Positions 24,702 to 44,761 of a stretch of DNA of 64,000 bases are shown piece after piece. Numbering within the stretch: the stretch's first letter is position 1; the number at the start of each line of letters is the position of its first letter. The translations under genes were made by a program, and so were the position numbers. Origin of the DNA: Cellvibrio sp. KY-YJ-3 (GTDB lineage Bacteria; Pseudomonadota; Gammaproteobacteria; Pseudomonadales; Cellvibrionaceae); the NCBI RefSeq assembly GCF_008806955.1, contig NZ_CP031727.1, positions 2,308,001 through 2,372,000 on the forward strand. Reading direction: 5' to 3'. The notes beneath the pieces were generated by a model. It had not been told where the DNA came from and made no database searches. It saw only the letters and a list, made by a program, of their open reading frames with translations.

Positions 24702-24971
24702 ATGTCACTGCAATCAGGTTTGTATCGCCATTACAAAGGTAAGGATTATTTTGTATTTCAAGTGGCGCATCACAGTGAAACGCGCGAGCCGTTAGTTTTT
24801 TATCGCTGTCTCTATGGTGACTATTCGTGGTGGGTTCGTCCCCTTGCGATGTTTACAGAAACAGTTGAGTTGGCGGGTGAGACAATTCCTCGCTTTCGTT
24901 TTTTGCGTGCGCTGGGTGAATCTGAAATGGCACATTTTTTAGCCCCGCAAATGGAATATGAGCAATCGTGA
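24702..24971 (+). CDS. DUF1653 domain protein
   Basis: This 89-residue protein shows the DUF1653 pattern: LQSGLYRHYKGKDYFVF, REPLVFYRCLYGDYSWWVRPLAMF and the C-terminal PRFRFL. The function is unknown to me. Its stop overlaps the GTG of tadA, so the two genes are coupled. Confidence 0.85.
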   Translation: MSLQSGLYRHYKGKDYFVFQVAHHSETREPLVFYRCLYGDYSWWVRPLAMFTETVELAGETIPRFRFLRALGESEMAHFLAPQMEYEQS

Positions 24972-25534
24972 ATAATCCTGATTCGGTGGAAAGTACAGCA
25001 TCCATTTTTTCGGAGCAGGACAAGCATTGGATGGATTATGCTTTTCAACTCGCTGCGCAAGGCGAAAAATTAGGTGAGGTGCCTGTGGGTGCTGTTATCG
25101 TGTGTGACGAAAAAATATTGGGAGAGGGGTTTAATCAACCTATCACCAGTCACGACCCCACTGCTCATGCGGAAATAATTGCCCTGCGTCAAGCGGCACA
25201 ACAGGTGCAGAATTACCGTTTGGTTGGCGCGAGTATTTACGTCACCTTGGAGCCGTGCACTATGTGCGTTGGCGCGTTGGTACATGCGCGTATTGCGCGA
25301 TTGGTGTTTGGTACCACAGAGCCAAAAGCGGGGGCGGTAGTCAGTAAGTCACAATTGCTGGATAACGATTATTTTAACCATCGGGTAAATTATGCTGGTG
25401 GGTTGATGGCGCAAGAGTGTCAGCATCAATTAAGTGAATTTTTTGCGGCGCGTCGCGAGCAGAAACGACAAGAAAAAGTGAAGCGGCAAGCATCGCAGGG
25501 CGAGCAAGAAAAGCTTGCGGAGTTGAAAAAGTAG
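24968..25534 (+). CDS. tadA: tRNA-specific adenosine(34) deaminase
   Basis: The 188-residue protein has the zinc-dependent deaminase motifs HAEIIAL and PCTMCVGALVHARI. TadA converts A34 to inosine in the tRNA-Arg(ACG) anticodon. The start is GTG at 24968, overlapping the DUF1653 stop (GTGA). A charged C-terminal tail (Lys, Arg, Gln, Glu) extends beyond the usual domain. It is the last gene of the pdxH-led run. Confidence 0.93.
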   Translation: MNNPDSVESTASIFSEQDKHWMDYAFQLAAQGEKLGEVPVGAVIVCDEKILGEGFNQPITSHDPTAHAEIIALRQAAQQVQNYRLVGASIYVTLEPCTMCVGALVHARIARLVFGTTEPKAGAVVSKSQLLDNDYFNHRVNYAGGLMAQECQHQLSEFFAARREQKRQEKVKRQASQGEQEKLAELKK

Positions 25535-25537
25535 GGT

Positions 25538-25568
25538 TTGGAAATAAAAGGTGGGATTGGAAATAAAA
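25538..25568 (+). repeat. Short tandem repeat downstream of tadA
   Basis: TTGGAAATAAAA occurs at 25538-25549 and again at 25557-25568, a 19-base period, in a stretch that also repeats GTAGGG. It is a small, decayed-looking tandem repeat just past the tadA stop. Confidence 0.55.
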
Positions 25569-25594
25569 CGTAGGGTGTAAAAAATCTAGGCTGT

Positions 25595-25803
25595 AAAAAT
25601 AAGTAGGGGCCGCAAGCGGCCCCGTACAGATACTATCCCTTAGTAGAAGTAGTCAATTTGCTCGACATTCCCTTCGATTCCCTGACCGCCTTTCCTCCTG
25701 CGCTAGCGCAATCCCTTGATGTCTCCTGACATCGCGTCCCTAACAGGTGGGCGCATCCATTGACCTTTCCTGGCCAGATCACATCATTGTCTACTTCCTT
25801 GAT
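25595..25803 (-). ncRNA. CsrB/RsmZ-type CsrA-sequestering small RNA
   Basis: Read on the minus strand, this stretch between convergent tadA and ppnN holds about eleven GGA motifs, many as AGGA or AGGGA. Several sit in hairpin loops: a 5' hairpin with loop AGGAAGTAGACAA (arms 25800-25809 and 25777-25786), UGGCC-AGGAAA-GGUCA (about 25760-25775), GAUGUC-AGGA-GACAUC (25718-25733) and UACUA-AGGGA-UAGUA (about 25630-25645). It ends in a GC-rich hairpin (25606-25623) and a T-rich run. This is the design of CsrB/RsmY/RsmZ RNAs, which titrate CsrA. The promoter CATAAT and a GacA-like box lie upstream. Exact ends are inferred; the start is put about 7 bases after CATAAT. No open reading frame fits here. 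Confidence 0.82.
25597..25623 (-). terminator. Rho-independent terminator of the Csr-type small RNA
   Basis: On the minus strand GGGGCCGC-TT-GCGGCCCC (25623-25606) is followed by TACTTATTTTT. The eight-base GC stem and T-rich tail make a strong terminator. No coding gene precedes it on that strand for over 250 bases, which supports an RNA gene ending here. Confidence 0.85.
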
Positions 25804-25809
25804 GTGATC

Positions 25810-25815
25810 ATTATG
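25810..25815 (-). promoter_or_regulatory. Likely -10 element of the Csr-type small RNA
   Basis: The minus strand reads CATAAT here, five of six matches to TATAAT. A start about 7 bases on would be near 25803. The matching -35 position (TATTCT, 25833-25838) is poor, as expected for an activator-dependent promoter. Confidence 0.5.
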
Positions 25816-25859
25816 CTTGCGCGCAGGCTGGCAGAATAGTCGCTAAACTCCGTATCTTT

Positions 25860-25877
25860 TGTGAGACATTGACTACA
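25860..25877 (-). promoter_or_regulatory. GacA/UvrY-like upstream activating box
   Basis: The minus strand reads TGTAGTCAATGTCTCACA. Compared from memory with the Pseudomonas consensus TGTAAG-N6-CTTACA it matches nine of twelve defined positions with the right spacing. Its centre lies about 65 bases upstream of the inferred RNA start, close to where it sits at rsmY-type promoters. Confidence 0.65.
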
Positions 25878-25905: not shown

Positions 25906-27318
25906 TTACTTAATAACTTTATAGCAGGGAATATAGGCTCTACCGGGTAGTTTCATCCGGCTATCCCGCGCAAAAGACTCTAGTAGCTCATCCACAGGGT
26001 GCATAATTTCCGGATCGCCATGAAGCTCAAAATGGCCGAACTTCTCAATCGCACAAATGCCTTCCTCTTTCACATTGCCCGCTACTATGCCCGAAAACGC
26101 CCGGCGTAAGTTTGCAGCCAATTGGTTTACCGGTTGATTTTTGTGAAGTTCCAGATTACGCATGTTCTCGTGAGTGGGAATAAACGGCTGCTGTAAATCG
26201 GGGCTTATTTTGAGTTGCCAATTAAAATAGTAGGCATCATCACTTTGCTTGCGGAACTCGCGCACTTTTTTAATACCCTCTTTCATTTCACGTGCGACTG
26301 CTTCTGGGTCATTTACGATAATTTTGTAATGGGATTGCGCTTCAGTGCCCAAGGTGTCACCAATAAAGCGGTCGATATGTGCAAAATAATCTGCCGAGCT
26401 TGTCGGGCCGGTAAATACCAGCGGAAAGGGGATATCCTTATTGTCGGGATGCAAAAGAATGCCCAGAATATAGAGGATCTCTTCTGTAGTTCCTGCGCCA
26501 CCAGGGAACACAATAATGCCATGGCCAAGACGCACAAATGCCTCAAGCCGTTTTTCAATATCCGGCATGATGGTAAGTTGATTAACAATTGGATTGGGTG
26601 CTTCAGCGGCGATAATTCCAGGCTCGGTAATACCAATGTAACGACCATTGGGCATGCGTTGTTTGGCGTGACCAATGGTGGCGCCTTTCATGGGGCCTTT
26701 CATGGCGCCAGGACCGCAGCCAGTACAAATATCCAGGCTACGTAAGCCTAATTGATAACCAATTTCTTTGGTGTATTCATATTCAATGCGATTGATGGAA
26801 TGACCGCCCCAGCATACGACCAAATTTGGATCCAGGCCGGGTTTTAGTAAATTGGCGTTGCGCAGCATATGAAAAACGGCGTCGGTGATACCTTCTGAAC
26901 TTTCCAAATTAAACTTTGGATTACCATTAATTTCATCGTTGGTGTAAATCACATCGCGCAATACGGTAAACAGGTGCTCGCTAATACCGCGAATCATTTT
27001 GTCATCCACAAACGCATTGGCGGGTGCGTTTTTAACGGCGAGTTTTATGCCGCGTTCCTGCTGCACAATACTGATTTCAAAGTCTTTGTAGCGCTCTAAT
27101 AATTCTTTGCCGTCATCCAGGTCATTGCCGGTATTGAGTACCGCAAGTGAGCAGTTGCGAAATAATTTGTAGAGTCCACTTTGACTGGAGTCTAATAATT
27201 TCGCGACCTCTATTTTGGACAGCACATTCAGTTGGTCGATGGGTGATATCAACGCATCAACCGTTTTATAAACGCCTGGCTCTGTCAAAATAGGTTGATT
27301 GGGGTTGAGGTTGCTCAT
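25906..27318 (-). CDS. ppnN: Pyrimidine/purine nucleotide 5'-monophosphate nucleosidase (LOG family)
   Basis: I choose the ATG at 27316-27318 (470 aa, MSNLNPNQPILTEPG) because AAGGA lies 6 bases upstream; an in-frame ATG five codons earlier has no such site. Long PpnN/YgdH-type N- and C-terminal extensions surround the central LOG fold with PGGAGTTEEILYILG, the nucleotide-binding and catalytic motif. The E. coli enzyme cleaves nucleotide monophosphates to base and ribose 5-phosphate and is controlled by (p)ppGpp. It converges on the small RNA region. Confidence 0.9.
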   Translation of the reverse strand: MSNLNPNQPILTEPGVYKTVDALISPIDQLNVLSKIEVAKLLDSSQSGLYKLFRNCSLAVLNTGNDLDDGKELLERYKDFEISIVQQERGIKLAVKNAPANAFVDDKMIRGISEHLFTVLRDVIYTNDEINGNPKFNLESSEGITDAVFHMLRNANLLKPGLDPNLVVCWGGHSINRIEYEYTKEIGYQLGLRSLDICTGCGPGAMKGPMKGATIGHAKQRMPNGRYIGITEPGIIAAEAPNPIVNQLTIMPDIEKRLEAFVRLGHGIIVFPGGAGTTEEILYILGILLHPDNKDIPFPLVFTGPTSSADYFAHIDRFIGDTLGTEAQSHYKIIVNDPEAVAREMKEGIKKVREFRKQSDDAYYFNWQLKISPDLQQPFIPTHENMRNLELHKNQPVNQLAANLRRAFSGIVAGNVKEEGICAIEKFGHFELHGDPEIMHPVDELLESFARDSRMKLPGRAYIPCYKVIK

Positions 27319-27503
27319 AGTGTTCCTTAGCATCGGTGATGCGGTTGCTCGGAGTAATTAAGTAGTCTTGTTTTTTGTGACTGGTGTTTTAAGTGTAGTG
27401 CTAATTTACGCAGATTGTATTGGCTTGGTCTTGTATGCCCAATTAATAATTCTCGTTATGATGCTTGGTGTATGTTTTTTGATCTGCTTTTTTAATAAAT
27501 GAG

Positions 27504-44569: not shown

Positions 44570-44761
44570 ATGTTAATTTTAACTCGCCGTATTGGCGAAA
44601 CCTTGATGGTAGGTGACGAAGTTACCGTTACTGTTTTAGGTGTAAAGGGCAACCAGGTTCGTATTGGTGTCAACGCTCCTAAAGATATTGCAGTTCATCG
44701 CGAAGAAATTTATCAGCGTATTCAGCGCGAAAAGCAAAATCAAGAAGAACAAGACGATTAA
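44570..44761 (+). CDS. csrA: Carbon storage regulator CsrA/RsmA
   Basis: The 63-residue protein begins [20 protein letters not shown] and has [22 protein letters not shown], including Leu4 and the Arg of VHREE that contact GGA RNA. It ends in an acidic, Gln-rich tail. CsrA binds GGA motifs in message leaders and represses or stabilises them. It is followed by a long hairpin and tRNA-Ser, as in many relatives. The candidate antagonist RNA is at 25595-25803 in the same window. Confidence 0.97.

Follow-up and report, generated by a model that had tools for sequence, protein, structure and literature searches.

The minus strand downstream of ppnN in Cellvibrio sp. KY-YJ-3 very probably carries a free-standing gene for a trans-acting small RNA (sRNA) that is activated by GacA and titrates CsrA, and that is one of several such genes in the genome. 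In the proposed mechanism, phosphorylated GacA (UvrY) would bind an 18-bp box upstream of the gene and turn on an RNA of ~209 nt ending at an intrinsic terminator. The GGA motifs of this RNA, distributed over hairpin loops and linkers, would bind CsrA dimers, and this titration would free CsrA-repressed mRNAs. The best reading is that the sRNA would act like RsmZ or CsrB, with scores below the Rfam thresholds for membership of the corresponding families (RF00166 and RF00018). The original prediction of a CsrB/RsmZ-type RNA is supported by the GGA content of the element across Cellvibrio, by a GacA-like box placed where one would be expected, by a small number of substitutions that maintain pairing in hairpins and terminator, and by the presence of csrA, gacA and a gacS candidate. 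Members of Cellvibrio are studied for their polysaccharide-degrading enzymes, and the Gac/Csr switch commonly controls secreted enzymes in related bacteria; naming the candidate sponge genes opens the Cellvibrio Gac/Csr circuit to deletion tests. Table 1 lists the features in the window (the whole 64-kb stretch of DNA analysed) and at related loci of the same genome.

Table 1. Coordinates of the predicted sRNA gene, its structural and promoter elements, neighbouring and partner genes, and sibling loci (C1, positions outside the window numbering).
Feature	Position	Strand	Remarks
Predicted CsrA-binding sRNA	25595..25803	-	~209 nt, 11 GGA, 0 TCC; start inferred from -10 box, end from terminator
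GacA/UvrY-box-like sequence, 18 bp, TGTAGT-CAATGT-CTCACA (own copy TGTAGTCAATGTCTCACA)	25860..25877	-	~-74 to -57
Conserved element TTTAGCGACTAT between box and -10	25836..25847	-	GCGACT in 27/32 aligned promoters
-10 box CATAAT	25810..25815	-	ATAATG consensus in alignment
Hairpin TGGCC-AGGAAA-GGTCA	25761..25776	-	GGA-in-loop probability 0.95-0.96
Hairpin GATGTC-AGGA-GACATC	25718..25733	-	loop probability 0.16-0.36 in sampling
Hairpin TCGA-AGGGAATG-TCGA	25662..25677	-	GGA-in-loop probability 0.83-0.93
Hairpin TACTA-AGGGA-TAGTA	25631..25645	-	loop probability 0.09-0.27
Intrinsic terminator, stem GGGGCCGC..GCGGCCCC, then TACTTATTTT	25606..25623	-	
ppnN	25906..27333	-	upstream, same strand; passes NCBIfam cut-off
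tadA	24968..25534	+	convergent neighbour; passes NCBIfam cut-off
csrA, predicted partner	44570..44761	+	above cut-off; only CsrA match in genome
Sibling L131	C1:2204924	-	~320 nt, 18 GGA, 4 TCC; was a seed (L119)
Sibling L132	C1:4016098	-	~175 nt, 7 GGA, 0 TCC; was a seed (L127)
Sibling L133	C1:543024	-	~126 nt, 4 GGA, 2 TCC; not a seed
L134, module before small protein gene (MTTLNIGNQAYNSQD...)	C1:728253-728303 and downstream		AAGGA before ATG; not a seed

GGA enrichment is the primary signature of the element. The roughly eleven GGA motifs in about 210 bases reported earlier for the minus strand are exactly 11 by direct count from 25803 to 25595, with no TCC. Among all 209-nt segments on both strands of the window, this number is reached only by 74 overlapping segments at this locus, and the plus-strand maximum is 8. 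GGA composition alone is insufficient proof, since 128 of 5000 dinucleotide-preserving shuffles attain at least 11 (the observed count lies ~2.2 standard deviations above); among mononucleotide shuffles the number is 47 of 5000. Csr/Rsm antagonists are short non-coding RNAs with numerous GGA motifs, an intrinsic terminator and no conserved open reading frame (ORF), and all these features are found here.

A DNA search of 57 genomes recovered the element in 22, of which 20 are among the 21 Cellvibrio genomes and two represent further genera of the family; the sole Cellvibrio genome without an RNA match (G016) has one match to the promoter model described below. The Cellvibrio matches comprise 13 close and 7 diverged ones, with a common layout and a middle sequence that is little alike. 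Among the 13 closest, 7 of the 11 GGA triplets are invariant, compared with 32% of all triplets. Relatives that keep the neighbouring gene have not lost the motifs: each of the 20 matches contains 9-13 GGA, with ppnN adjoining in 19, and the reading as a Csr/Rsm-type RNA is not refuted. The same conservation bears on the proposal that the stretch is intergenic DNA enriched in GGA by chance, or a small protein gene. The shuffles above leave room for the former, and for the latter there is a 49-amino-acid ORF from a GTG start (25782-25633, minus strand), the longest on the sRNA strand. Against it stand the GGA count of all 20 matches and the conserved promoter and terminator, and the small-ORF reading was rejected because, among the 13 closest relatives taken as a set, the longest ORF varies in frame, start and length. 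The earlier statement that no coding frame fits stands, and the proposal, largely refuted by conservation, retains hardly any probability.

The element had been placed between convergent tadA and ppnN. The ppnN side of this description is general, as ppnN is the immediate upstream neighbour, in the same orientation, at 19 of 20 Cellvibrio loci, whereas just 7 of the 20 loci have tadA inside the ~1.5-kb flank, a count in which some flanks end at contig ends; in L004 tadA is ~1 kb distant. The nearly constant position behind ppnN would also suit an RNA derived from the 3' untranslated region of the ppnN mRNA by read-through or processing and acting only through ppnN. This origin is very improbable: the RNA is separated from ppnN by a conserved promoter module of its own, other places in the genome have stretches that follow this promoter, and the best match in one genome (G012, locus L018), perhaps a relocated copy or a paralogue, retains the promoter in a locus without ppnN, which argues for the sRNA as a gene of its own. 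Two copies of TTGGAAATAAAA are present between the tadA stop codon and the sRNA terminator (25534-25600), where the sequence of the relatives differs.

The predicted promoter of this gene, unnoticed in the earlier note, combines a GacA/UvrY-type box, the TTTAGCGACTAT element and a -10 box, with 12 bases between the first two and 20 between the last two. All three align without gaps in 32 promoters, 19 of them from the window gene (one of its 20 matches, L016, was left out of the set because its box is too diverged). The commonest box form, TGTAGTCAATnTCCTACA, is exact in 16 of the 32 and the KY-YJ-3 form in 6, the latter having a less palindromic right half than the commonest form of the relatives. 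According to the portion of the published work consulted, the GacA site of rsmY and rsmZ is an 18-bp TGTAAG-N6-CTTACA located at -75 and -196, respectively (PMC4950607). The KY-YJ-3 box agrees with this site at 9 of the 12 specified positions and, if transcription starts at 25803, begins at ~-74, close to the rsmY site; judged by its sequence, it is a putative GacA/UvrY box. The promoter model built on these data (R1) is a 69-bp, sequence-only model whose 32 seeds were gathered via an RNA match or the box, so that box conservation is partly by construction. Searching the KY-YJ-3 genome with the box pattern and 3 mismatches yields 6 forward and 4 reverse matches, against 2 and 3 for a reversed control. 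Seven of the ten are followed by 0-5 GGA and three (L119, L120, L127) by 8-13; because these matches are mostly GGA-poor downstream, the 69-bp model was used instead.

At least four GGA motifs had been described as lying in hairpin loops. This holds for the local stems taken singly, and the two hairpins then named are indeed present (25733-25718 and 25645-25631), but the whole RNA is less clear-cut: across 1000 sampled structures, the mean number of GGA within hairpin loops is 2.4-2.8, of which two are firmly placed there, and the mean number of unpaired GGA is 3.7-4.2. In the 13 close relatives, the stem of the 25776-25761 hairpin is invariant in all and its loop GGA (at 25770) is present in 7. 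The 25733-25718 stem is likewise intact in all 13, with a U-A pair replaced by C-G in 4, and the GGA register in its loop (at 25726) shifts. The outer U-A pair of the 25677-25662 hairpin becomes A-U in 3 relatives and is broken in 3 by an anchored count, the corresponding numbers by RNAalifold columns being 4 and 2. The 25645-25631 hairpin keeps its GGA in 13 of 13, with a stem eroded in several. As for the terminator, the GC hairpin and its tail (TACTTATTTT) exist as proposed, with 7 GC pairs and a 4-nt loop; reaching the eight pairs originally counted requires a 2-nt loop. C-G is replaced by G-C in one relative and G-C by A-U in one (the anchored and the RNAalifold counts each have L013 out of register). 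The RNAalifold covariation term is small (-0.32 kcal/mol, with both sides changed in 3 of 50 pairs) because most pairs never vary. Compared with shuffles, fold stability reaches z -2.99 for the 231-nt stretch 25820-25590 and z -1.40, only a slight excess, for the 209-nt stretch.

Rfam covariance models, suggested earlier as a check, do not recognize the element: at gathering thresholds one tRNA only is returned, and the Csr/Rsm models remain below their thresholds. The PrrB_RsmZ model (RF00166) scores 21.2 bits at the element (E 0.012; gathering score 44), which ranks second among 8 genome-wide matches, none above the cut-off. Such weak scores carry little weight because, at E <= 10, 12 of 14 control genomes also match. 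The best RF00166 match of the genome (L111, C1:928644-928806, minus strand; 23 bits, below the cut-off), was set aside as antisense over a protein-gene start (by eye) and devoid of a promoter-model match, but with 7 GGA, 2 TCC and a terminator-like end it may still be a candidate; five others on the list (L113-L116 and L118) contain 0-3 GGA each. RF00018 (CsrB) has no match at the element, no Csr/Rsm family besides RF00166 matches it at E <= 10, and blastn against plasmids gave no match. Being below the thresholds for both RF00166 and RF00018, the element is probably a new member of this functional kind, and searching with a promoter model first offers a route to Rsm-type RNAs missed by covariance models.

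PrrB/RsmZ of Pseudomonas (RF00166) is among the closest known systems: both RNAs are GGA-rich, terminator-ended and preceded by a GacA-type box; the 133-position model aligns full-length to 25753-25599 on the minus strand, with its last hairpin on the terminator. The predicted Cellvibrio RNA is longer than PrrB/RsmZ and scores 21.2 bits against the gathering score of 44; the predicted likeness is one of function. Its predicted Gac control also resembles that of RsmX and RsmY, the Gac-controlled RsmA sponges of Pseudomonas. Pseudomonas syringae has such RNAs in higher numbers than Vibrio. Multi-copy CsrA sponges, as predicted here, include CsrB/CsrC of enterobacteria and CsrB1-4 of Vibrio, where the sections consulted report two to four csrB copies, a precedent for the sponge copy number predicted in Cellvibrio (PMC6262261). 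In P. brassicacearum, an upstream box is reported to have led to the discovery of a fourth Rsm RNA (PMC7911923). A literature search of open-licence papers found no sponge RNA of Cellvibrio; the portion seen of one paper names Teredinibacter GacS/GacA/CsrA and C. japonicus csrA and mentions no sponge RNA there (PMC2699552).

The protein partners of such a circuit are encoded in the genome. The csrA gene lies 18.8 kb from the element, in agreement with the 19 kb given before. A GacA-type regulator, encoded directly before uvrC, scores 272.6 bits with NF007018 (equivalog cut-off 280; next best 80.9), and the best GacS/BarA candidate 743.5 bits against an NCBIfam equivalog cut-off of 890, so that CsrA is accompanied by GacA and GacS matches below their equivalog cut-offs. 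The partial exposure of GGA in hairpin loops would be compatible with an RNA that sequesters a GGA-binding protein other than CsrA, or that base-pairs with mRNAs, CsrA not being the main partner. We give this a very small likelihood, as a GacA-type box before a multi-GGA RNA is, in the parts of the literature consulted, the published Rsm combination, and csrA is present once in the genome.

Titration of CsrA is probably not the task of the window sRNA alone. In the KY-YJ-3 genome the promoter model finds five sites, one of them that of the window gene, with E-values from 6e-14 to 1.4e-5, ahead of a next-best value of 0.09. At three of the others (L131, L132 and L133) the module is followed by a stretch that bears GGA motifs and ends in a terminator (placed by eye, each folding as a hairpin), and the earlier designation of the window sRNA as "the CsrA antagonist" was therefore too strong. 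The fifth site (L134) precedes a small protein gene with GGA in its ribosome-binding site, which suggests that this mRNA may be both directly controlled by GacA and open to binding by CsrA; the two regulators would then act on one mRNA. It is an evenly balanced proposition that Cellvibrio possesses an enlarged Gac/Csr circuit, in which one extended GacA module would jointly drive at least four sequence-diverged sponges of KY-YJ-3 (~320, ~209, ~175 and ~126 nt, with 18, 11, 7 and 4 GGA, respectively) and also stands before a small protein gene. L204, L210 and L232, and perhaps L197, resemble L134.

Across the 57 genomes, the promoter model matches in 30 at E <= 0.01, comprising all 21 Cellvibrio genomes, 8 of 15 other family members and, in the order outside the family, 1 of 21. 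Downstream GGA content was compared in 59 of 60 regions hand-chosen from these matches, for the most part stronger matches at loci other than the ppnN site (L185 was dropped at a contig end; L179 coincides with seed L041). Over the 200 nt that follow the module, the mean is 7.3 GGA versus 1.5 TCC, and over 200 nt further down 1.8 and 2.9 (58 regions). GGA exceeds TCC after the module in 51 of 59 regions, equals it in 6 and falls below it in 2. At least 7 GGA with at most 2 TCC occur in 30 of 59 regions after the module; at +420 to +620 none of 58 regions shows this combination, and among random 200-mers of the window 108 of 20000 do. Some module matches are not sRNA-like, several short ones having 2-4 GGA in 200 nt and some standing before protein genes.

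By eye, one short class has a 5' pattern, AAGGA...GRCCA...GGTCAAnGGAnGCG, in common with the window gene. None of the weak promoter-model matches of KY-YJ-3 (L135-L138, E 0.09-0.64) is sRNA-like by eye; at L135 (C1:4465638, E 0.09), a TGTAAG-type box precedes a DegV-type gene that scores 57.6 bits against a cut-off of 99.7. A GGA-rich class not met in KY-YJ-3 follows the module in other Cellvibrio (L023, L024, L027, L029, L198, L213, L222 and L227), and one of its members, L027, matches CsrB (RF00018) with 37.3 bits (E 5e-7; gathering score 71).
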